From: Acidobacteriota bacterium
GTDB lineage: Bacteria; Acidobacteriota; Terriglobia; Versatilivoradales; Versatilivoraceae
DNA: 64,000 nt
NCBI GenBank assembly: GCA_028875575.1
Contig: JAPPDF010000067.1
Location: 1 to 64,000, forward strand
Reading direction: 5' to 3'
This document shows, in pieces, positions 24,553 to 45,197 of this stretch. The notes below the pieces were generated by a model. That model saw only the letters and a program-made list of their open reading frames with translations. It did not search any database and was not told where the DNA came from. How positions within the stretch are numbered: the stretch's first letter is position 1; each line of letters opens with the position of its first letter. The translations under genes and the position numbers were made by a program.

Positions 24553-25842
24553 TCACACCGACCAAGGCTCCCGATACTCCTTGGTCAGCATGGCGTTGGC
24601 TTCGGGGTCGTTGAGAATGGTTTCGGTCTTCGGATCAAGGTGAAGCACCCGTTGGGTCAGGTAGGCGATGTCGCCCAGATGGCTGAGTGCGCAGGAGAGA
24701 TGGGCCACCTCGGCCGAGGCGTTGGGCTGCTTGCGCGAACGCACGCAGTCCACGAAATTGGCAAAGTGCTCCTCCTTGCCGATGCCGCCGCGCATGCCCG
24801 GACCCTTTTCCTCCTTCTTGCCCAGGTAGACCTGAAAATAGCCCCGCCGGGAAAACACCATGAAGCCTTCGGTGCCGTAGAAGGCATTGCCGCTGTCGAA
24901 GCCGTAGCGGCCGTAGGGCGTCCAGCCGCGGTCCTCGTAGAGCAGCACCTTGTCGTCCGGATATTGGAAGGCCACCATCATGTTGTCGGGGTATTCCCGC
25001 AATCCTTTCAGGTCGATGCGGCTGCCGTGGGCAGTGATCCTGATGGGCAGGCCCTTGGGATTCAGCCCGAAACGGGCCATGTCCAGGTCGTGGCTGCCGT
25101 CGTTGCCGATGTCGCCGTTGCCGTAGTCCCGGTGCCACTGCCAATAGTTGTGAAAGCGGTTGGCGTTAAAGGGCCGCTTGGGAGCCGGGCCCAACCACAG
25201 GTCGTAGTCGACCCCGGGCGGGACCGGGCCGTCCGGAACCGGAGTGCGATGCCTGTGGCGCTGCAGGTTCCAGGCCTTGGACATCTTGACTTCCCCGATC
25301 ACCCCCGCCTTCAACAGCTCACCGGCCTTGAGCGTCACCGGGCTTGAGCGCATCTGGGTGCCTTGCTGCACGATGCGGCCGTGCTTCCTGGCCGTGTCCA
25401 GTATTACCCGTCCCTCCCGAAACACGTGGCTGGCCGGTTTCTCCACGTAGAGATCCTTGCCCGCCCGCAGCGCCCGAACCGCTATGGGAGCATGCCAGTG
25501 GTGAGGGGTGGCGATCACCATGGCATCGATGGCGGGGTCGTCCAGCAGATGGCGAAAGTCGACCACCACCTTGGGCTTGCGCCCGGTGGCCTGCTTGACG
25601 GTTTCGGCGGCGCGCTCTCGGAACTTCACGTCCACGTCGCAGACCGCCAGGCAGTCCGTATCGGGCCGCGCCAGGATGCGCTTCAGATGGCTGAAACCGA
25701 TCCCCCGCAGTCCGATGACGGCCATCCCCAGGCGGTCATTGGCGGACCAGGCGCGACCGGTCGCCAACACAGGGCCTAGCGCGCCCAGGGCGGCCCCTCG
25801 GGCCGACCGGGATAAAAAGGTGCGTCGGGTGAGTGGTCTCAA
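24553..25842 (-). CDS. Tat-exported Gfo/Idh/MocA oxidoreductase
   Basis: 429-residue protein with a twin-arginine signal (LTRRTFLSRSARGAALG) followed by a Gfo/Idh/MocA domain: GLRGIGFSHLKRI nucleotide loop, ATPHHWHAPI and a VEKPASHV segment with the catalytic-type lysine, then NGDIGNDGSHDLDMARFGL, where the HDLD matches the catalytic region. It probably reaches the periplasm with NAD(P) already bound. I chose TTG at 25842, seven bases after AAGGAGG; the frame stays open upstream to a GTG without SD. A close paralogue lies at 27.9-29.2 kb; the two share nearly all motifs. Confidence 0.88.
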   Translation of the reverse strand: MRPLTRRTFLSRSARGAALGALGPVLATGRAWSANDRLGMAVIGLRGIGFSHLKRILARPDTDCLAVCDVDVKFRERAAETVKQATGRKPKVVVDFRHLLDDPAIDAMVIATPHHWHAPIAVRALRAGKDLYVEKPASHVFREGRVILDTARKHGRIVQQGTQMRSSPVTLKAGELLKAGVIGEVKMSKAWNLQRHRHRTPVPDGPVPPGVDYDLWLGPAPKRPFNANRFHNYWQWHRDYGNGDIGNDGSHDLDMARFGLNPKGLPIRITAHGSRIDLKGLREYPDNMMVAFQYPDDKVLLYEDRGWTPYGRYGFDSGNAFYGTEGFMVFSRRGYFQVYLGKKEEKGPGMRGGIGKEEHFANFVDCVRSRKQPNASAEVAHLSCALSHLGDIAYLTQRVLHLDPKTETILNDPEANAMLTKEYREPWSV

Positions 25843-34981: not shown

Positions 34982-37003
34982 TCAGTTGCCCGGAGAAAGC
35001 ACTTGGCTGACGGCCGATCCGCCTTCCGCGGGGTGGAGCACCATCATGGGGATTCGGGCCACGGGTATCGATGCTCCCATCTTTCCCTCCCAGATGGGCC
35101 GAAAGGGATCCTCCCCGGTCATCTTGCGATAGCGGTTCAGCCGGCCGGGTTGAACCGGACGCAGGTGGAACCGGAGCCACCGGGGAGTGGCCGTTGGGGG
35201 CGCGTCCGGACGAACCGCCAGCAGCAGGGTGACCACCTGGTCTTCCGCGGCAAAGACCTCCTTGCGGCCCTGTTCCTGGGGCAGTCCCAGCTCCGGCCCC
35301 ATATCGGCTCCCGGTAGCACCTCGACCCCCTCGGGGAGGTTGTCCACCGAGACCGCCAGGTCTCCGGCAAACCCCTCCTCCCGGCTGATAATGACGCTCA
35401 CCTTCTTGGCCTCGCCGGGATAGAGATTGACTCGATCCAGCTCGATCATCCAATCGAGCATTTCCCGGCCCAGAATGTTCAGAACCTCCGCCACCTCGAC
35501 CTCGCCCACGTGGGGCACCTGGGGACGCACCAGGAGCCGATAGCGGAATCCGGCCCCTCCCTTGCGGCGGGTCACATCCCGAACCCGGATCAGGTAGGAT
35601 CCGCTCTCCGGGAGGCTGAAGACCATCTTGGACTCTGCCGTCTTCCAGAACCACATGTTCTGGGAGGCCTGCCGCTTGTAAATATTGTTGACCAGTTCCC
35701 GGCCTGCCTCGTCGACGACCTCGATGCGCGGATTGAAGTAGGGGTAGTGGCGCTCGGGAGTCTCGATCTCGAAAGCCAGGTCCCCCGCCTCCTCCAATTC
35801 GAAACGGAAATGGTCCACGTCGGCGGGAAAGTCGATGGCTCCCTCGACAATGGAGGGAATGGCAACGGTGAGGGCCTGCCTGGCAGCGTCGTTGGGCTCC
35901 TGTTCCTGGACAATGGCGGCTGGGTCGGCGGCGGCAGGGCCGGTCGGACTCTCCTCGCCGCTCAGACCCATCAGGTCCCTCAACTGCTTTTCCAATACGG
36001 CCAGTGTCGCCTGGCGGGCCGATCCTCCCGATCGAGCCTGCAATCGGACCAGGCGGTCCGGCTCCAGCCTGCGGGTGAAGCCTCGCTCCTGCCATCGGTT
36101 CGCGGCCAGCTTGTCAAGGCCCCGGGCCCGGACCAGCGGAGGAAAGTCGGCGGGAGCACCGATCTGCAACTGGTAGGAGGCGCCCGGCTCCCCCTTGACT
36201 TCCAGGGTGTAGGAGCCGCCTTTCGCGAAGCGGTGGATCAACCTGGGCTTGTAGGCCGAGATGAACTTGTGGAAGACGGCGGTATTGGCGGCGCCCAGCT
36301 TCACCCGGCGCTCGGCATCGAACCAGCTCTGGCCGGGCCCGGAGAGTTCCAGAGAAAACCCCGGAGCCCTCCGTAGGTCCCCCCACAAACGCTGCACGCC
36401 TTCCACCACCTCGAAGGCCAACTCCTGGTCCTGATGGGCCTCGAACCGGTAGAAGTCGGCCTGGCCCTCTTCGGCAATCCGCCCGCTGAGGGCCGAGGGA
36501 ACGGCTATGGACTGAGCTTCCTTCGCAGTCCCATGCTCCTCGGCCGTCTCCTGGAGGGTGGGCATGGGAACCACCCAGAAGATCAGCTCGTTCGAGACGC
36601 CCTTGGACGAAATCAGCCTCAAGGCGTGGGGGCCCCTTTTGACTCCCGGGTCGATATTGACGGCCGCCACCACCCGTTGCCCCGGGATGTCCTTGACCTT
36701 GCGCCCCTCCTTCATCCTGGCCGAGCCGGGCTCCACCCGGACTACCCGACCCTGGATGGCGTCGGTGTCGGCCCAGAGAGCGTGGGCCCCCTCCAGGTTC
36801 CTTCCCAGGATCTCGATCTCCACGCTGCTCCCCGGCTGCCCGCCCAGAGGAAACATGTGGATGGCTTCAGGATCGGTGGGCTGGAGCCCGGCGGCGCCGG
36901 ATTCAGCCTGCGGAACTCCCGACAGGAGAAGCGCAATAACCGCACAACCCCAATATCCTGCCGCCTTTCGCCGGAATGCCACGGCTTCGCCTCGATGGAA
37001 CAC
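34982..37003 (-). CDS. Exported PPC-domain protein of PSD1 operon
   Basis: 673-residue exported protein. A signal peptide spans about residues 12-37. An N-terminal IPT/TIG-like domain (FPLGGQPGSSVEIEILGRNL) is followed by two bacterial pre-peptidase-type (PPC) beta domains, recognisable from GRIAEEGQADFYRFEAHQDQE near 170 and FPADVDHFRFELEEAGDL near 390. It has no catalytic motif. Proteins like this commonly lead PSD1/DUF1501 operons and may bind substrate or cell-surface polymer. A GTG at 36982 with GAGG upstream is an alternative start to the GTG at 37003. Confidence 0.8.
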   Translation of the reverse strand: MFHRGEAVAFRRKAAGYWGCAVIALLLSGVPQAESGAAGLQPTDPEAIHMFPLGGQPGSSVEIEILGRNLEGAHALWADTDAIQGRVVRVEPGSARMKEGRKVKDIPGQRVVAAVNIDPGVKRGPHALRLISSKGVSNELIFWVVPMPTLQETAEEHGTAKEAQSIAVPSALSGRIAEEGQADFYRFEAHQDQELAFEVVEGVQRLWGDLRRAPGFSLELSGPGQSWFDAERRVKLGAANTAVFHKFISAYKPRLIHRFAKGGSYTLEVKGEPGASYQLQIGAPADFPPLVRARGLDKLAANRWQERGFTRRLEPDRLVRLQARSGGSARQATLAVLEKQLRDLMGLSGEESPTGPAAADPAAIVQEQEPNDAARQALTVAIPSIVEGAIDFPADVDHFRFELEEAGDLAFEIETPERHYPYFNPRIEVVDEAGRELVNNIYKRQASQNMWFWKTAESKMVFSLPESGSYLIRVRDVTRRKGGAGFRYRLLVRPQVPHVGEVEVAEVLNILGREMLDWMIELDRVNLYPGEAKKVSVIISREEGFAGDLAVSVDNLPEGVEVLPGADMGPELGLPQEQGRKEVFAAEDQVVTLLLAVRPDAPPTATPRWLRFHLRPVQPGRLNRYRKMTGEDPFRPIWEGKMGASIPVARIPMMVLHPAEGGSAVSQVLSPGN

Positions 37004-37459
37004 GGATCTGGCGGAAGTATACCGGAGTGAGCCCCTCGTCTCAATCTTCGAGGATCATCCGGGAAGGGCTGCGAACGGTAAAAGAGATATTCACGACCGA
37101 GCAGGAAGAATGACCGCGCAGCAGTTCTCTTCGTCTGGGCATCGCCTGTGCGAGAACCCCGCACAGCATCTATTTCCACGATTTTCGTGAAACGCTCCGG
37201 CGCAGGCCGTCGCATCCGCCGGGCGGTCGCGGATTTGGCGTGGGTCGATGAGATCCTGCACGCCCTCCGGGCGTACATTCCGCCATAGCGGGGCCGTCAC
37301 TGCCAGGAAGGGAGGCTCTGGGGAAGGAGTTGACCTGGAAGGTTCTTGCGAGAACCAGGAGAGGAACTCAGCGATCCACTGAGTCGGGGAAAATCTCCCG
37401 TTGAGTTCAGCAGAGTTGATTGCTCGATAGCAAGAGGCTTGGGAACGTTCTGGACGGTC
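37004..37459. other. Intergenic region with duplicated flank
   Basis: No gene is recognised. A 33-codon + strand frame near 37187-37288 has no ribosome binding site or family match. From about 37406 to 37510 the DNA resembles 38971-39075 (TTCAGCAGAGTTGATTGCT against TTCAGCAAAGTTGATTGCT and more), which is the 3' flank of the neighbouring thioredoxin gene, so this region is part of a segmental duplication. Confidence 0.4.
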
Positions 37460-38740
37460 CTAACCTGGCCTCAACGAGCGAAGGTCTTCCAATGTAATCT
37501 CGACATCAAGCCCCTTGGTGTTTCCGAATTCCTCAAGGTGGTCCACCGCCTTCTCGATCAGGGAAGTGACGGGAGGGAACAGGGCGGGCAGTCGGGATAG
37601 AATCTTGCCGTCCTCGCCGACCAGCACGTAGCTCGGATAGCCCTCGATGCGCAAGACACGCTCAAAGTCGCTCCCCTTGCCTGCATGCCAGTTCGTCCAA
37701 GGCATCGGTTCATCCTCGATAAACCGGGTCACGGTCCCAAGATCTTCGTCCCCGCTGATCGCGACGATGGCAAACCGATCGGCCGGCAGCTTGGCAACCA
37801 GTTCCCGAAGCTTGGGAAAGGCTTCGACGCACGGCCCGCACCAGGTTGCCCAAAAATCGAGCAGCACGATGCGGCCGCGATAGTCCGACAGTCGTTCCTC
37901 GACGCCGTCGAGCCGCCTGCCCGTCACGTCCGGCAGCACGGCGCCCACGGTCCCTTGGCGCAGGCTGCGAAGCAACTCCGCCTCCGCCTCGTTCAGCGTT
38001 TGAGGAGTTGCGGTGCCGCCACGGTCCAATCCCAGGAACTTCTCCGCCTCCACGCCGGCGCTCAATCCGGTGGCCACCTCGATCGCCCGCTGACGCAGGA
38101 CCTCCCGATCATCGGCCGACAGCACCAACTGCTGGTTGGCGGCACGCATCATTCCGGCTGCCACGTAATACTTGCCGTTGGCACGCAATACGGGGTCTTC
38201 CGCCTCGGACGCCATTTCCTCGAAGAACTTTGCAACTTGCGGCCCGTAAGGAGTCTGAGAGTAATAGATCTCGCTCAGCACCCGAGGCCACTCCTGGTAG
38301 TCGGGTGCGTAGGCGAGGAGAGCCTTCGCGCCGATGTAGAAGTACCGGCCGGATTCTTCGAGGGCATTCATCGGCCTCACGAGAAACTCCGCCGCTTCCA
38401 TTGTCTTGTCATGGGTACCGCCCAATTTCAGGATGGCGGTGGCTGCAGCTAAAGCAGGATCGAAGTCAGGGGGCTTTGGAAGACCATCTCTCATTTCACG
38501 AGGCGACCTGCCCTGCTGAGCGCCCTTCCTGTAATGCTCCCGACTGTCTTTCTGCCAGGCGCGCTCCTGGTCGAGGAACTCTTGCACCACGGCCCAGTCC
38601 GCCCCGATCTCAGGTGGCTCAGCATCCGGAGCGACTGCGCGCTGGCACGACCCCATCGGAGTCACCAGCGCCGCCGCAACAAGGATCCAACCGAGCGAAC
38701 GCCATCGAAGCGTGCGTGGGGCGCTGATCTCGTTTTCCAT
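37460..38740 (-). CDS. Thioredoxin-fold lipoprotein (TlpA-like)
   Basis: 426-residue protein. A signal peptide with a cysteine at the lipobox (ALVTPMGSCQRA) suggests a membrane-anchored lipoprotein. Residues 45-260 form a helical region with no family I recognise. The C-terminal third is a TlpA/ResA-like thioredoxin domain with the WCGPC active site in LLDFWATWCGPCVEAFPK, so it probably reduces or exchanges periplasmic disulfides. The ATG at 38740 follows AAAGG; an upstream ATG would add nine residues before the signal. The thioredoxin domain is nearly identical in DNA to that of the next gene, although the N-terminal parts are unrelated. Confidence 0.82.
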   Translation of the reverse strand: MENEISAPRTLRWRSLGWILVAAALVTPMGSCQRAVAPDAEPPEIGADWAVVQEFLDQERAWQKDSREHYRKGAQQGRSPREMRDGLPKPPDFDPALAAATAILKLGGTHDKTMEAAEFLVRPMNALEESGRYFYIGAKALLAYAPDYQEWPRVLSEIYYSQTPYGPQVAKFFEEMASEAEDPVLRANGKYYVAAGMMRAANQQLVLSADDREVLRQRAIEVATGLSAGVEAEKFLGLDRGGTATPQTLNEAEAELLRSLRQGTVGAVLPDVTGRRLDGVEERLSDYRGRIVLLDFWATWCGPCVEAFPKLRELVAKLPADRFAIVAISGDEDLGTVTRFIEDEPMPWTNWHAGKGSDFERVLRIEGYPSYVLVGEDGKILSRLPALFPPVTSLIEKAVDHLEEFGNTKGLDVEITLEDLRSLRPG

Positions 38741-39052
38741 CGCGTGGCCTTTCAGGTGAACGGGCATGAATAGGGGACGTTGTTCAATTACTGGAATTAC
38801 TTCGATCGGCCGCTGTTGAATTGCTTTGATTCAGTAACGTCTCCTACTGGCTCTTTACAGGTTATTCCAGTAATTCAAAAACGTCCCCAGCGCTCAAGGT
38901 TTATGCCCCTTCGCTGCGGCAGCGATTGAGTGCGTGCCTCAATGCGGCACTTGAAGGGTCCATTGCCGATTTCAGCAAAGTTGATTGCTTCAGGGCGAAG
39001 GGCATGTGAACGTCTCGGCGGCGTCAATCCGGATGGGTGGAGCGAAGGTCTT
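38741..39052. other. Intergenic region with ECF sigma echo
   Basis: No intact gene. 38923-38954 matches 27 of 32 bases with 40380-40411, part of the ECF sigma factor remnant, and in the minus strand it reads KCRIEARTQS, like KRRIDARARS in that remnant. The segment after it, 38971-39052, resembles the DNA before 37460. Together these suggest that a sigma-thioredoxin unit was duplicated and decayed. Confidence 0.4.
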
Positions 39053-40198
39053 TCAATTCAGACTCGCCATGAAGTCCCGGGTGCTTCCGGATTTACCCAG
39101 CTGTTCCACCACCTTCTCAATCAGGGAAATGAACCGGGAGTCCATTGCGCCGGTTCGGGTCAAGATGGTGCCGTTCTCGTCGGCCAGCACGTAGGTAGGA
39201 TAGGATCTGGTACCCAGTAAACGCCCGAGGACACTCTCCTTGCCCGCGTGCCAGTTCGTCCAAGGCATGGGTTCATCCTGAATAAACCTGGTCACGGTCC
39301 CAAGCTCTTCGTCCGCGCTGATCGCGACGAGAGCGAACTGGTCCGCCGGCAGCTCGGCAACCAGTTCCCGAAGCTTCGGCAGATGTGCGATGCACGGCCC
39401 GCACCAGGTTGCCCAGAAATTGAGCAGCACGATGCGGCCCCGATAGTCCGACAGTGCTTCCTCGATTCCGTCGATCCGCCTGCCCTTCACGTCCGGCAAC
39501 GTGCGGGGCCGTAGACTGCGAAACACCTCCGCCTCCGTGCCTGCCAATGCTTGAGATATCGGAGTGGCGGCGGCGTAGACCTGCATGATCTTCTCCTCCT
39601 TCCATGCAAGGTCATCGATCTTGTAATCTGCCGGAATTTTGAAGACCGATGGTTCAGGCTCGGCGAACCGGATGTCGTAGAGTTCTCTGACTTGCCTTCC
39701 TCGACCGAACTTGGTCTCCGTTTTGACCCTCAGGTTGGCCTCTCTCGCCACCCAAACTTTGCCGGCAGACTCCTCTGAATTGCCCGGGGACAAGACAGGC
39801 ATTGCCAGGCAATCGAGCCCCGCAATAACTCCCTCGTCAACTGCCCTGTCAGGTCTTAACACAAAAGGGCGGAACGGTCCTGGCCGGACTTGTTTCAGGG
39901 TTGCTTCCTTGAGACGGTGGTTCAACACATAGGTTCTTCGAGTCGAGGAATCCATGAGAGTCGATCCATGTGTTGTTGGATTTTTTCCTTTGACTCGCGC
40001 CATGGTATCCAGCACCGAACCGGAGGAGGAACGGAAGTAGGTGCCCTCTTCCCGCATGACCTCCATTTCGCTTCCATCGGACTGAATGAGGTAGTGAACG
40101 CTTCGCTGCTTGGCGATTACGGGCACGAATTGAGCCCGCAGCTCGGTCGCCCAGCAGAACACAAATACCAGGCAAGTGACCAAAGTGGTGATTTTCAT
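39053..40198 (-). CDS. LolA-like and thioredoxin fusion protein
   Basis: 381-residue exported protein (signal peptide about residues 1-22). Residues 30-205 resemble the separate 212-residue protein at 43.2 kb: both have a repeated-turn beta structure ending in PADYKI/PEDYTI, similar to LolA or MucB-type lipid-binding folds. Residues 235-381 are a TlpA-like thioredoxin domain with WCGPC in LLNFWATWCGPCIAHL. The ATG follows GAGAGGTG. The fusion of an envelope sensor-like domain to a redox domain is unusual. The exact ligand is unknown; LolA resemblance is by fold-like pattern, not close identity. Confidence 0.72.
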   Translation of the reverse strand: MKITTLVTCLVFVFCWATELRAQFVPVIAKQRSVHYLIQSDGSEMEVMREEGTYFRSSSGSVLDTMARVKGKNPTTHGSTLMDSSTRRTYVLNHRLKEATLKQVRPGPFRPFVLRPDRAVDEGVIAGLDCLAMPVLSPGNSEESAGKVWVAREANLRVKTETKFGRGRQVRELYDIRFAEPEPSVFKIPADYKIDDLAWKEEKIMQVYAAATPISQALAGTEAEVFRSLRPRTLPDVKGRRIDGIEEALSDYRGRIVLLNFWATWCGPCIAHLPKLRELVAELPADQFALVAISADEELGTVTRFIQDEPMPWTNWHAGKESVLGRLLGTRSYPTYVLADENGTILTRTGAMDSRFISLIEKVVEQLGKSGSTRDFMASLN

Positions 40199-40349
40199 GC
40201 AACACCTCTCTTTCTCTCGCTAACACTACCAGGCTGAGTGAATCGCCGGCGGTTGTGACTCGAACTTGGCTCCGAGTCCGCTTTTTGCCCCTATACCCCT
40301 ATAAACAGTCGAAACGGCGATGGATTACAATTTTTTTCGGAACGGCCCT

Positions 40350-40575
40350 TCAGGACTGTCTGAAGCCCTGCGACGAAATCGATCGAGCGCGTGCATCAAT
40401 GCGGCGTTTGAGCAGTGCGATGGCACGGTTCATGCGGACGCGACATTGCTGCGGGAGACAAGAAGGCGTCGTGAATTTTCCTTGTTCGAGAATCCCTGGT
40501 ACAGACGCAGCTTGACGACCTGGCGGTAGGTTCCTGGCAGCAGATCGATCATCTCCCTTCGGAATGTCACCACAC
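40350..40575 (-). pseudogene. ECF sigma factor remnant (region 4)
   Basis: Two adjoining frames together encode sigma region 4: REMIDLLPGTYRQVVKLRLYQGFSNKE in one frame, running to VASA and a TGA at 40430-40432, and RMNRAIALLKRRIDARARS in the next frame after a shift near 40435. This is the helix-turn-helix and C-terminal helix of an ECF sigma factor, with region 2 absent. It starts within the last codons of the BlaR1-type gene. A degraded echo occurs near 38.9 kb. It is a disabled regulator of the neighbouring genes. Confidence 0.6.
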
Positions 40576-40577
40576 GG

Positions 40578-42701
40578 TCATCCTGTCCCCGGGGGATCAA
40601 GAACGAACTTGATGGTGATGGTGGTAACCACCTCGACCAATTCTCCCTGACGGAGGGTCGGTTTGTACTTCCACTGTTTCACGGCGTCTACAACCGAAGC
40701 AGCCACATGACCGTAAAGTCTCGGTTCTCCATCGATTGTCCTCAGGGCTTGGACTGAACCGTCTTTCCCAATGCTGGCTTCGAGCACCAGCAACCCTTCG
40801 ATTCCGATAGAGAACGCCCCGGATGGACAGGGCGGTTCCAACCGGTACAGGATCTTCTTCCGCTGCTCGTCCTCGTTGACCCGAACTCGCTCCGACGATG
40901 GTTGTGTGTCAAACGCGGACGGCGATTCAAATTCCAGGGCATGCGATGGAATCCGGCGCGGAGGCGCAGGGGTCGGAAACTTCGCCGGCACGGTTCCCCA
41001 GGTATCGCCGTCTGCGAACTGAACACCCAACACGCCAACCGTGAATTCCTCGGGAATCTCTTCTATCGGGAAGTAGATCACGTATGGATGAAACACACGA
41101 TTGTCCGGGTCCGAGCGTAGCCAATTTTGAGGAGGGAAGTGTCTAAATGGGCCACGAAGGAATCTTTGGGCACGTTTTCCAGGCATACGGTCGGTCGAGA
41201 ACGATCCGTGGGGTTCCATGTCAAGCTGATACATCTCGGCGTGCACTGTACGCCGGAGGGGGGCATGGCGGAACTTCAACCGTACAGCAGTGATCTTCCT
41301 GGCCGTTCGACTGGATAAGCTGACACGCGGCAGGAGCAGGTAGACGCCTACCTGCTCGACCTTCATCGCCCTCAAACCGGCATCGGTGATGAGAATCGGA
41401 CTGCCTGGCGAATTTAGAAACGCTATCGGTAATTCCGGACTCTGCTCGATTTGCTGCAAGGTGATAGTGGGAGGAGGAGATCCTATCCGGTTGTTACGCA
41501 TGGATTCATCGACCAGCGGTCCGCATTCGCTGCCGGACATGCGCACCACCGCACTCACGTCTTTCGGAATCCCTTCCCGACTGGTTTGGATCCGTGGTGA
41601 GTATCTATTGGTCGCACCGCTCCAGGCCGCGTAGGCATCACGGTTCACAAAACCCGCACCCAAGGAAAAGACGGCCAGCCCCCCCACCAGTCCAATGATC
41701 AAGGCGCGTTCCGGGGTGCCGAGCTTTCTCGGTGGCTCGGTGGAAAGGAGATGTTTCATCCGTCTTTTGAGGCTTGCGCCGCCAATGGAAGAAATCCCAA
41801 CCAGCCGCTGTTCCACGCAGGCCCTGGCAACCTTTAAAACTCCCGAGACATAGGTCTCCGGAGATTTCCCAAGCCGTACGACTTCCTCATCGCAGGCTCG
41901 CTCCCTCTCCTCGAACAACTTCCGGTCGATGAGCCAGGCAAGAGGATAAAACCACAACAAAACCGTAATCGCCTTCTGCAGCACTACAGCCAGGTTGTCC
42001 CTGCGCTCCACGTGTAGCAGTTCGTGGAGCATGACCGCTTCCAGTTCCTCGTCGCTCAAGCGGCTTGCGGCGGCTTCGGGCAACAAGACCGTAGGTCTCC
42101 GAATTCCCCAAAGTCCTGCCACGGTGACTTTGTCCGAAACGAGGATATCGACGTCCCGATTCAACAGAAGCCAGGAGCGGACTCGCTTCAGGACCTGCGT
42201 TTCTCTGGAAGAGACGAGCGCAAAGCGGGTCTTGACGGCCCAGGCCAGGCTCAAAGAGCCCCTCGCCCAACGAAAAGCAAAGAATACGAACCCCGCCAGC
42301 CAAGTCAGCGTGAGCGCGCAATACAGTTCGTTGTGGTCTTCAGCGGACACGGGCTGACCGGCAATGGGCTGGCCCAGCAGCAAGGGCTTGAGGATTTCAT
42401 AAGCGGGTCTTCCCGGGTCGATGGCTTGAGCCCCATGGGTTGACTGTTCCGGGAGTGGAGGAGAAAGGGATGGTGCCGCGGAAGGAATTTCCGATACCAG
42501 CCATGCCAACAGGACCGAGGGAACGAGCAGCTTGAACGCGGCCAGCAGCCAGAACCAGTAACGGGTACTTGCCGGCGCCCGCTTGAGCAACCGGACACCC
42601 AATGCCAGCAATCCGACGAAGAGAGTTGCCTCCCAAAGGTGGACCAAGACATTGGGCCACAGCCAGGAAGACAACTCTGCCAGCCACGGGTGCGTGTTCA
42701 T
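40578..42701 (-). CDS. M56/BlaR1-type sensor peptidase with TonB C-terminus
   Basis: 707-residue membrane protein. Four hydrophobic helices surround a cytoplasmic zinc-peptidase domain with HELLH at 226-230 and ERERACDEEVV at 265-275, the M56/BlaR1 catalytic pattern. Residues about 360-620 are an extracytoplasmic region with no penicillin-binding-domain motifs (no SxxK/KTG), so the ligand is unlikely to be a beta-lactam. The C-terminus (about 620-700) is a TonB-type domain. The protein probably senses an envelope signal and cleaves the BlaI-like repressor encoded 44 bases upstream. The gene is followed directly by the ECF sigma remnant. Confidence 0.85.
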   Translation of the reverse strand: MNTHPWLAELSSWLWPNVLVHLWEATLFVGLLALGVRLLKRAPASTRYWFWLLAAFKLLVPSVLLAWLVSEIPSAAPSLSPPLPEQSTHGAQAIDPGRPAYEILKPLLLGQPIAGQPVSAEDHNELYCALTLTWLAGFVFFAFRWARGSLSLAWAVKTRFALVSSRETQVLKRVRSWLLLNRDVDILVSDKVTVAGLWGIRRPTVLLPEAAASRLSDEELEAVMLHELLHVERRDNLAVVLQKAITVLLWFYPLAWLIDRKLFEERERACDEEVVRLGKSPETYVSGVLKVARACVEQRLVGISSIGGASLKRRMKHLLSTEPPRKLGTPERALIIGLVGGLAVFSLGAGFVNRDAYAAWSGATNRYSPRIQTSREGIPKDVSAVVRMSGSECGPLVDESMRNNRIGSPPPTITLQQIEQSPELPIAFLNSPGSPILITDAGLRAMKVEQVGVYLLLPRVSLSSRTARKITAVRLKFRHAPLRRTVHAEMYQLDMEPHGSFSTDRMPGKRAQRFLRGPFRHFPPQNWLRSDPDNRVFHPYVIYFPIEEIPEEFTVGVLGVQFADGDTWGTVPAKFPTPAPPRRIPSHALEFESPSAFDTQPSSERVRVNEDEQRKKILYRLEPPCPSGAFSIGIEGLLVLEASIGKDGSVQALRTIDGEPRLYGHVAASVVDAVKQWKYKPTLRQGELVEVVTTITIKFVLDPPGTG

Positions 42702-42745
42702 GGGAGATAGCGCTCCTCACTTCCTCGCAGGCTCCTGCCCGGAAC

Positions 42746-43165
42746 TCACTCGGGTTTCGGATCCAAGTCAGTGGTCCCCGCTCGGCGGGTCTTTCTTTCC
42801 TTGAGGATCCCTTCCAGTTCCCTCAGGTCTTCCAGCGTCAGTTTGCCCGTGTCGGCCAGATGTGACATCACCGGTAGAGGTGAACCGCTGAACATCTCCA
42901 GAAAATCGTGCACCAAACGGCGGTAGGCCTGCCTTCGGGTGATGACCGGGACAAAGACATAAGCGTTCCCGATCTTTCGCTGTTTTCGCAGGGCTCCTTT
43001 TGCCTCCAGGCGAAAGACCAGCGTTTGGACGGTCGTATAAGCGAGCTTTTTGCTAACAGGCAGCTCCTCCAGAATCTCCCTGATGGACGCCCTGCCGAGT
43101 TTCCAGAGCGCTTCCATCGCCTTGAGTTCAAGAGGCGAGAGTTTGATATGGTTCCCCTTTGTCAA
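42746..43165 (-). CDS. BlaI/MecI/CopY-family transcriptional repressor
   Basis: 139-residue winged-helix repressor of the BlaI/MecI family. ELKAMEALWKLGRASIREILEELP and LAYTTVQTLVFRLEAKGAL are the typical DNA-binding helices, and residues 75-125 form the dimerisation part. The TTG start at 43165 lies five to six bases after a perfect AAAGGAGGTG; the frame is open upstream, but without such a signal. It is encoded between a LolA-like gene and the BlaR1-like sensor, and a partly palindromic site over the promoter of this group fits its operator. It is probably inactivated by proteolysis when the sensor is triggered. Confidence 0.9.
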   Translation of the reverse strand: MTKGNHIKLSPLELKAMEALWKLGRASIREILEELPVSKKLAYTTVQTLVFRLEAKGALRKQRKIGNAYVFVPVITRRQAYRRLVHDFLEMFSGSPLPVMSHLADTGKLTLEDLRELEGILKERKTRRAGTTDLDPKPE

Positions 43166-43178
43166 GAAGACACCTCCT

Positions 43179-43817
43179 TTACCTCTTATTGCCGAGAACA
43201 GGACTGGTATTGGTGATCGTGTAGTCCTCCGGAATCGCAAAAACCGACGCACTCGGTTCCCCCTGCCGGAAATCAAAGAATTCCCTGATCAGGCGGGCTC
43301 CACCAGGAAAGGTGAAGTCAGACTTGACAATTAATTGCAGGTCCTCGGAAAACCAGGACCCACCGGGGGACAATTGGCCATTCACCAAGACCGGTTTGCC
43401 CACGCACTCCACACCATTGATGACTCGCCTGCCCAAGGGTTCCGATCCTGGTGGAACCCTGAAGGGAGAGGGCAGCAGCGGAAGCGGCAACTGTCTCATG
43501 AGCCGCGCCGTCTTCCGATCGTGATTGATGAGATACACGTTGCCGGTGGCGGCATCCTTGAAGTGTGCCCGTCCGGTTGGCTGCCCATCCTCGACGTTGA
43601 TCCGGGTCCTCATCTCCGAACCTGAGGACGCACGAAACAGTACACCGACGGACTCTTCCAGCAGTTCCTCCGAACCATCCGGTAGCGTTCGATAGGTGAG
43701 CTCTTTGAATTGAGCTGTCAAGGGGAGCCACTGCCCTTGCAGCAACAGGGGAAGGGTCAATGCGAGAACAAGTGTGGCGCAAAACGACAGATATCTGCTC
43801 GTTGTCTTTCCGTTCAT
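43179..43817 (-). CDS. Exported LolA-like protein
   Basis: 212-residue protein with a signal peptide (about residues 1-30). The rest is beta-rich, with GVLFRASSGSEMRTRINV, GNVYLINHDRKTARLM and IREFFDFRQGEPSASVFAIPEDYTI, and is homologous in order and length to the first half of the fusion protein at 39.1 kb. I chose ATG at 43817 after GGAGGTG; the frame upstream to 43898 is unrelated. It is the first gene of the BlaI/BlaR1 group, about 110 bases behind a good promoter. It may bind lipid or a lipoprotein; that is inferred from the fold pattern only. Confidence 0.7.
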   Translation of the reverse strand: MNGKTTSRYLSFCATLVLALTLPLLLQGQWLPLTAQFKELTYRTLPDGSEELLEESVGVLFRASSGSEMRTRINVEDGQPTGRAHFKDAATGNVYLINHDRKTARLMRQLPLPLLPSPFRVPPGSEPLGRRVINGVECVGKPVLVNGQLSPGGSWFSEDLQLIVKSDFTFPGGARLIREFFDFRQGEPSASVFAIPEDYTITNTSPVLGNKR

Positions 43818-43932
43818 TGTGTCACCTCCAAAGGATCTGACGTCCCTGATAGAGTGCGATCCATAGCCACAACATCGGTCGAAGGGAAAACCGTTCATTC
43901 AAAGCAAGCAACTTTTCTACAGAGATAAAGTA

Positions 43933-43961
43933 ATTATACCTATATATGTAGTAGTCATCAA
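43933..43961 (-). promoter_or_regulatory. Promoter of LolA-like/BlaI/BlaR1 group
   Basis: On the minus strand, TTGATG (43956-43961) and TATAAT (43933-43938) are separated by exactly 17 bases, a near-consensus sigma-70 promoter. Transcription would start near 43926 and give a leader of about 110 bases. It lies in the most A/T-rich stretch of this region. Confidence 0.65.
43937..43950. promoter_or_regulatory. Candidate BlaI-type operator
   Basis: TACATATATAGGTA on the minus strand matches its own reverse complement at 12 of 14 positions, has the TAC...GTA edges typical of BlaI/MecI sites, and fills the spacer of the promoter up to the -10 box. Repressor binding here would block transcription. 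The match is seen; binding is inferred. Confidence 0.5.
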
Positions 43962-44117
43962 CAAATTTTTTTATCCTCATGCGACCATCACAACGGTCTC
44001 TGATTAAACGATGGAGCCATTCCCACGCGTTAGGACCTTGAGTTGCAAGAAACCCTTCTCTCGTGACCGCCACACATGTTGCCGCGAGGGGCGCCCGGCC
44101 TCTGCACCGGACTCCGC

Positions 44118-45197
44118 TTACCGGGCGCCGGCTAGCTGCATGGGGTGGTGGAGCCGGTAGTGCCAGGCCAGCACGTCCCGGCCGAAGTCTCCGTCGAAGT
44201 CTCTCCAGACGGAGTGGCTGTGGTTGTTGTTGTTCTGGGTATTGTCGTATTCGATCAGAAAGGAAGGGGCCTGCACCCGGTAGTAGTCACCGGCTCCCGG
44301 CTTCACCGAGCCGGCCCAGGCAAAGAAGAGCTGGTCTGAAGGGGTTTTCCGGGCCTTTTGCATCCGTCGCTCGGCGACCTCGTCCGGAAGGATGTTGGCA
44401 TACTCGCCGATCAGGGCCATCAACCGGTCCACCTGGGCGGCGGTCATTTCCGAGGCCGCCAACCCTGGCGGCTGGCCTTCCAGTTTGGCCCGCGAATCCG
44501 CCTTGGTGAGGACATCGGGATAGGCCGTGTCGGCCACCACCGCCTTGCCGAGCTGCTTGGCGTTCAGAGACCGGACCAGGGCACGCGCCAGGTCTTCCTC
44601 CTTGGCCAGGGCTCTCATGCCCTGATAGCGGCCCGCCAGCACCCGGTGGGGGTTGGCTCCCAGGAAGGTGGGGCTGGCCGAAACCAAGCGCCCTTCCTTG
44701 AAAGTAAAATTCAGGGAAATATGGTGCCCCTCCACCCGGAAGCCCCAGGTTCCCTGCAGCGACGGCTTGCCGAAAACACTGAAGTAGTACTTGTCGATGT
44801 CGCGGTTTCCGGTGGTGTCCTTCTCCAGCACCCGAAGGATCTCCTCCAGGGTCTGGACCGCCATCACCTTGGCGAAACCGGCCTGGCTCAGGCCGGCGGC
44901 CAGCAGAGCATCGGCCAGACGGCGCTGCTCGGGTGCCATGCCCTTGTAGTTCACTCCTTTTCTGGCGTAGCCGTACTCCCTGGCGAAAGCGCTGTCCGGG
45001 AAGAAGTGCCACACCGTCCGGGTCTCGTGGCTGAAGTCGTAGACCACTTTGGCCCGCTGCTCCTCGGAGAGCGAGTCCACAAACCGAGTGGCGGTTTCAT
45101 ACAGGACGGTCTCGGTCCTGGTTCGGTGGTGGGCCGCCACAAGGGCCAGGGCGCAAACGGCCAGCGCGCAGAGTCGGAAAGTCGTGGGCTTGGTCAT
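44118..45197 (-). CDS. DUF3500 family exported protein
   Basis: 359-residue exported protein of the DUF3500 family. A signal peptide covers about residues 1-22. The family pattern is clear: SLSEEQRAKVVYDFSHETRTVWHFFP, GVNYKGMAPEQRRLADALL, SVFGKPSLQGTWGFRVEGHHISLNFTF and YDNTQNNNNHSHSVWRDFDGDFG, the last being rich in Asn, His and Asp that could bind metal. The function of the family is not established. The ATG has GGAGG upstream. It is 72 bases downstream of the HpaI-like aldolase gene and may be transcribed with it. Confidence 0.85.
   Translation of the reverse strand: MTKPTTFRLCALAVCALALVAAHHRTRTETVLYETATRFVDSLSEEQRAKVVYDFSHETRTVWHFFPDSAFAREYGYARKGVNYKGMAPEQRRLADALLAAGLSQAGFAKVMAVQTLEEILRVLEKDTTGNRDIDKYYFSVFGKPSLQGTWGFRVEGHHISLNFTFKEGRLVSASPTFLGANPHRVLAGRYQGMRALAKEEDLARALVRSLNAKQLGKAVVADTAYPDVLTKADSRAKLEGQPPGLAASEMTAAQVDRLMALIGEYANILPDEVAERRMQKARKTPSDQLFFAWAGSVKPGAGDYYRVQAPSFLIEYDNTQNNNNHSHSVWRDFDGDFGRDVLAWHYRLHHPMQLAGAR

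Follow-up and report, generated by a model that had tools for sequence, protein, structure and literature searches.

The window, the whole stretch of 64,000 nucleotides that was analysed, holds a block of five genes, all on the minus strand and correctly placed by an earlier note made from the sequence alone. In the direction of transcription they encode an exported LolA-fold protein of 212 amino acids (43179-43817), assigned from an AF2 model and Foldseek, a BlaI-family repressor of 139 amino acids (42746-43165; alignment A1), an M56 (BlaR1-type) membrane metalloprotease of 707 amino acids with an uncharacterised periplasmic region and a TonB_C C-terminus (40578-42701), a LolA-like/TlpA-type thioredoxin fusion of 381 amino acids (39053-40198) and a TlpA/ResA-type thioredoxin lipoprotein of 435 amino acids (37460-38767, alternative start 38740). 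The blaI gene starts with TTG, which is preceded by AGGAGG, and lies 44 bp upstream of the M56 gene. A comparison with the separate genome G005 gives dN/dS values of 0.28 for lol, 0.06 for blaI, 0.24 for M56 and 0.23 for the fusion, and these four are therefore real genes under constraint.

Three features were overlooked in the earlier note: a remnant of an ECF sigma gene (40588-40356) and a promoter-like element (40330-40294), both on the minus strand, and an inverted repeat before the lipoprotein gene. A search of Rfam gave no match in 37000-44500.

Genomic context

The contig that carries the G005 copy of the block comes from Candidatus Versatilivorator vitaminiformans; the G003 copy lies in SB0661_bin_38 and the G001 copy in OX638355. 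Ca. Versatilivorator belongs to the Acidobacteriota, Terriglobia. The flanking genes are a DUF3500 gene and a PSCyt-linked gene. Where the block is missing, the gap between these two is 815 bp in G004 and 247 bp in the sister genus (G008), and in G006 the space is occupied by other genes and a fragment from the N-terminal part of sigma. GC content is 0.56 over 40-44 kb compared with about 0.64 around it. From these gaps and the drop in GC, the block is an insertion, specific to this genus, that separates two genes which otherwise adjoin, and its site has had more than one history.

Conservation of the neighbourhood is divided. Pairs of blaI and M56 occur in six of the seven genomes of the genus, but in G001, G004 and G006 the fusion lies elsewhere, unlinked to such a pair, and a search of G006, which has the fusion, sigma copies and the element, detected no M56. 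More distant LolA-like homologues are not beside blaI or M56 in about 20 loci at class level.

The blaI-M56 operon

The repressor matches Penicillinase_R/BlaI (PF03965, 91 bits), in agreement with the earlier assignment. The M56 protein matches Peptidase_M56 (PF05569, 115 bits) and TonB_C (PF03544, 33 bits), with HELLH at residues 226-230 and several transmembrane-like segments. Domain and motif searches found no SxN motif, KTG motif or transpeptidase domain in this protein, so the description of it as an M56/BlaR1 sensor with a TonB-type C-terminus and without penicillin-binding motifs stands. Because the circuit is of the BlaR1/BlaI type but without a penicillin-binding sensor, a beta-lactam is unlikely to be its signal, as had been proposed. 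In the predicted structure the periplasmic region has a pLDDT of 43 with only the TonB_C part fairly confident, and the model was left unused.

The system shares with BlaR1/BlaI and MecR1/MecI a membrane zinc protease with HELLH, a winged-helix repressor of the BlaI family in the same operon as the protease, and an ACTACA-type half-site over the promoter. It differs in the sensor, where TonB_C and an unknown domain, or CarboxypepD_reg repeats, replace the penicillin-binding domain, and in that no beta-lactamase or PBP target gene adjoins it.

Several paralogous forms of the pair are found in the genus. The M56-TonB form is present in the window, G005:C406, G005:C463, G003 and G001, where the M56 reading frame is broken, while M56 is fused to a carboxypeptidase-regulatory protein of the 568-amino-acid type in G000:C91, G005:C25 and G004:C6. 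Relatives of M56-TonB in named genomes comprise three full-length members from the genus, and the remaining matches are TonB_C proteins without detectable M56. M56 is paired with BlaI in sister genera too, where the periplasmic parts are TonB_C, CarboxypepD_reg or DUF3738. One sister-genus locus (L045:643-2625) encodes an M56-DUF3738 fusion, which shows that the periplasmic domain of M56 is exchanged.

Upstream of the lol-blaI-M56 genes a sigma70-type promoter of the form TTGA(CA)-17-TATAAT is predicted, with ACTACA inside the spacer; in the window it reads TTGATG-17-TATAAT and overlaps the BlaI-like half-site (43933-43961, minus strand, before the LolA-like gene). The pattern TTGANNNNNACTACATATGAGGNTATNA, allowing at most three mismatches, has six matches in the seven genomes, each before an operon of this kind, and its reversed control has none. 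Position and sequence of the promoter are kept before paralogous blaI-M56 operons in G000, G001, G003 and G005. In the TACA/TGTA dyad at the blaI promoter the ACTACA half is conserved across the paralogous promoters and the right half is degenerate. This half-site is consistent with the TACA/TGTA operators known for the BlaI/MecI/CopY family (PMC7253601), and C. thermocellum has small BlaI regulons that are autoregulatory (PMC8457756). The conserved unit is (LolA-like)-blaI-M56 behind a sigma70-type promoter with a BlaI-like half-site. A literature search for BlaR1/BlaI in Acidobacteria gave no relevant paper. Swapped periplasmic parts (TonB_C, CarboxypepD_reg, DUF3738) in M56/BlaI switches, some of which lie beside sigma factors, suggest that BlaR1-type signalling extends past beta-lactams.

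The thioredoxin genes

The fusion consists of a LolA-like N-terminal half, with a hydrophobic N-terminus, and a TlpA/ResA-type thioredoxin with WCGPC. Its thioredoxin-type Pfam matches (PF00578/PF08534/PF13905), the WCGPC motif and an N-terminal half that aligns with the LolA-like family bear out the fusion that the earlier note described, and matches to PF08534, PF13905 and PF00578 do the same for the lipoprotein. Both thioredoxins share with TlpA, ResA and DsbE the WCGPC motif, an AhpC-TSA/Redoxin domain and the form of an exported protein or lipoprotein, but differ in that the thioredoxin is preceded, in the same protein, by either a LolA-like or a long N-terminal domain. The thioredoxin half of the lipoprotein gene, with its 3' flank, is a tandem duplicate of that of the fusion, with a spacing of about 1563 bp (37403-39099; direct repeats D1-D4).

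Directly before the lipoprotein gene is a MITE-like inverted repeat, GGGGACGTTGTTCAATTACTGGAATTAC, with 28-bp arms (38773-38888, no strand), ending 5 bp before the ATG. Further copies lie at several loci of the genus (L083, L085, L086 and L097) and also near 25113 (counted on the other strand).

The earlier note had joined all five genes in one BlaR1-controlled redox module, which amounts to a single BlaI regulon where the BlaR1-like M56 would act directly on the LolA-like, fusion and lipoprotein genes in an envelope redox response. The genes are on the same strand, and the fusion begins just 380 bp past M56 so that read-through is possible. G000 and G005 retain the order blaI-M56-thioredoxin, and G003 and G001 do so in part. 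However, no BlaI-like site was found before either thioredoxin gene, the fusion has a conserved element of its own, and it is separable from the operon, as its unlinked copies and the genome without detected M56 demonstrate. The model of a single BlaI regulon was rejected because the sites are absent before the thioredoxin genes; it is improbable, and direct BlaR1 control of a redox module is likewise unlikely. Common regulation of blaI and the thioredoxin genes gives way to what looks like separate regulation, with the BlaI-like promoter only before blaI-M56 operons and a different element before the fusion.

A sigma factor family and its linked element

The sigma gene in the window (40356-40588) is reduced to residues 118-195 with one frameshift, and regions 2 and 4 are not in one open frame. 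In tblastn it is 66% and 75% identical to the intact sigma factor of G006, which matches PF04542 and PF08281 (regions 2 and 4). Open frames are found in the C91, C67b, C25 and G001 copies, and dN/dS between C91 and C25 is 0.06. Close copies are confined to the genus among the 12 family genomes searched.

The remnant is followed, ahead of the fusion, by the promoter-like element TTGTAATCCATCGCCGTTTCGACTGTTTATAGGGGTA (40294-40330, minus strand; core match with 0 mismatches), an exact match to the element TTGTAATCCATCGCCGTTTCGA. With at most two mismatches the element occurs 35 times in the seven genomes and its reversed control not at all. Consensus, sigma adjacency and strand of the next gene were computed over 36 sites, and the wider consensus is AAAAAAATTGTAATaAATCcCCGTTTCGAcTGTTTATAGGGGTA. 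A copy of this one ECF sigma family, intact or truncated, lies 23-42 bp upstream of the element at 23 of the 36 sites; the other 13 are without adjoining sigma sequence and retain the same core. At 34 of the 36 sites the called gene that comes next shares the strand of the element, typically at a distance of 83-133 bp, and one exception of the two reflects a LolA-like gene, 127 bp downstream, that gene calling overlooked. The spacing of the element is not that of a textbook ECF -35/-10 pair.

When the window is compared with G005, 31 of 242 columns differ in the sigma remnant but only 2 of 139 in the element and 5' untranslated region (Fisher p 4e-5). This difference bears on whether the region is simply a recombination hot spot, where repeated sigma-cassette, LolA and thioredoxin sequences recombine, duplicate and decay between conserved genes, leaving neighbours that are functionally unrelated. 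Truncated sigma copies, internal deletions of LolA-like genes in G001, G003 and G004, the broken M56 frame in G001, the tandem thioredoxin duplication, the MITE-like element, the lower GC content (0.56) and differing inserts at the same site would all fit such a history. Against it, lol, blaI, M56 and the fusion are under purifying selection, and the element is far better conserved than the sigma remnant beside it; a hot spot is rather unlikely as the explanation.

The 37-45 bp element might also be a recombination target or another kind of repeat that moves together with the sigma gene and is no promoter. It is often joined to truncated sigma genes, and several contigs end nearby, as they do at repeats; on the other hand the core is unchanged at the 13 sites with no sigma alongside, and the element is nearly always oriented towards a gene start at the typical distance given above, which makes a mere repeat very improbable. 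From these sequence patterns we infer that the sigma family and the element are paired and that the element acts as a promoter. ECF sigma factors with a target promoter beside their own gene are comparable, with regions 2 and 4 and, in many loci, the element directly 3' of the sigma gene. The present family differs from them in being multi-copy and often truncated, with the element kept before unrelated exported proteins, and in that the sigma gene follows blaI-M56 in two loci.

Control of the block

The neighbouring thioredoxin (fusion) gene is most likely driven by the ECF sigma-linked cassette rather than by the M56/BlaI switch. There is an even chance, in our estimate, that the block consists of two regulatory units side by side, a lol/blaI/M56 operon and an ECF-sigma promoter cassette, with a possible indirect link between them. 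The first unit would be an autoregulated LolA-like/blaI/M56 operon in which BlaI represses the sigma70-type promoter. On sensing a periplasmic signal through its C-terminal part (TonB_C and an unknown domain, or carboxypeptidase-regulatory repeats in sister copies), M56 would be activated as a zinc protease, so that repression by BlaI is relieved. In the second unit the sigma gene is truncated and the element intact, and the element would drive the LolA-thioredoxin fusion with a sigma factor supplied in trans.

The indirect route would run from M56 through loss of BlaI to the sigma factor and on to the element-bearing genes. We infer the action of M56 on BlaI, the signal and this cascade from the known components and their order. 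A two-step cascade from M56/BlaI through sigma to exported proteins is plausible, and is proposed because the adjacency of blaI-M56 and sigma recurs in three arrangements: an intact sigma gene about 120 bp after blaI-M56 on the same strand (G000:C91 and G005:C25), sigma-element-LolA followed by blaI-M56 (G001, at 4.56 Mb), and a sigma stump after M56 (the window and G005:C406). Since the sigma gene in the window is broken, the M56 of the window could be linked to the fusion only through another sigma copy. A point against the cascade is G006, where sigma copies and the element occur but no M56 was detected.

Membership of the fusion in the element regulon is not fully conserved. In G001, G004 and G006 the stretch of about 260 bp upstream of the unlinked fusion copies contains no full element, and in G003 the element is about 2.1 kb upstream of the fusion, before the preceding gene.

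Genes downstream of the element

Genes next to the element usually encode exported proteins. They include ankyrin proteins (several loci), Sel1, NHL beta-propeller, LRR, TPR, CarboxypepD_reg, LolA-like and LolA-thioredoxin proteins and several unknowns. A crude hydropathy test finds an N-terminal hydrophobic segment in 25 of 30 downstream proteins compared with 17 of 72 background proteins, and none of the repeat families matches more than one of these 72. Of the five element sites in the window's own genome, two are before ankyrin genes; the genome has about seven such genes in all.

Members of this little-studied genus are presumably sponge symbionts. A literature search that combined sponge symbiont, ankyrin and ECF sigma found no paper. 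A defined element tied to one ECF sigma family would provide a testable regulon for the control of eukaryotic-like repeat proteins in uncultured sponge symbionts. Repeat proteins of this kind have been described as typical of sponge symbionts (PMC6306507).

A wider reading, possible but tentative, is a genus-specific two-tier envelope circuit. The M56/BlaI switch with its exchangeable periplasmic sensors would control the ECF sigma factor, and the element would have been copied as a cassette, often together with a sigma stump, before exported ankyrin, Sel1, NHL, LRR, LolA-like and thioredoxin proteins. If true, host-facing and envelope proteins would be under common control in these probable sponge symbionts.

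LolA-like proteins and small exported peptides

The designation LolA-like holds for the fold and not for the sequence family. The model of the stand-alone protein (AF2, pLDDT 85.5) matches solved LolA structures in Foldseek with a best E-value of 1.7e-7 and a TM-score of about 0.5 for several of them, but searches of Pfam and NCBIfam with the protein gave no match. The N-terminal half of the fusion has no family match either, and can be aligned with the LolA-like family. RseB also has a LolA/LolB-type fold. The protein shares with LolA and LolB the predicted fold and an export signal, but differs in lacking a match to the LolA sequence family, in having many paralogues and in being fused to a thioredoxin or found beside cysteine-rich peptides, and a role as lipoprotein carrier is only putative.

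The LolA-like gene before blaI is internally deleted or partial in G003, G001 and G004 (L087:13468-13705, L088:8730-8846 and L091:7395-7550), with blaI retained. Flags of internal stops had suggested that some LolA-like paralogues are pseudogenes or recoded; this was rejected, as the local tblastn alignments contain no internal stop.

Small exported cysteine-rich peptides (77-107 amino acids, 8-11 cysteines, no Pfam match) are encoded immediately upstream of LolA-like genes (L084:11168-11491, L084:7673-7906, L095:1714-1956, L098:3702-3950 and L102:7019-7333). None was found outside the genus in the 41 genomes searched, and three are clearly similar in sequence. These peptides are possibly clients of the LolA-like or LolA-thioredoxin proteins. 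The one at L098:3702-3950 is on the window's own contig, just past the end of the window.
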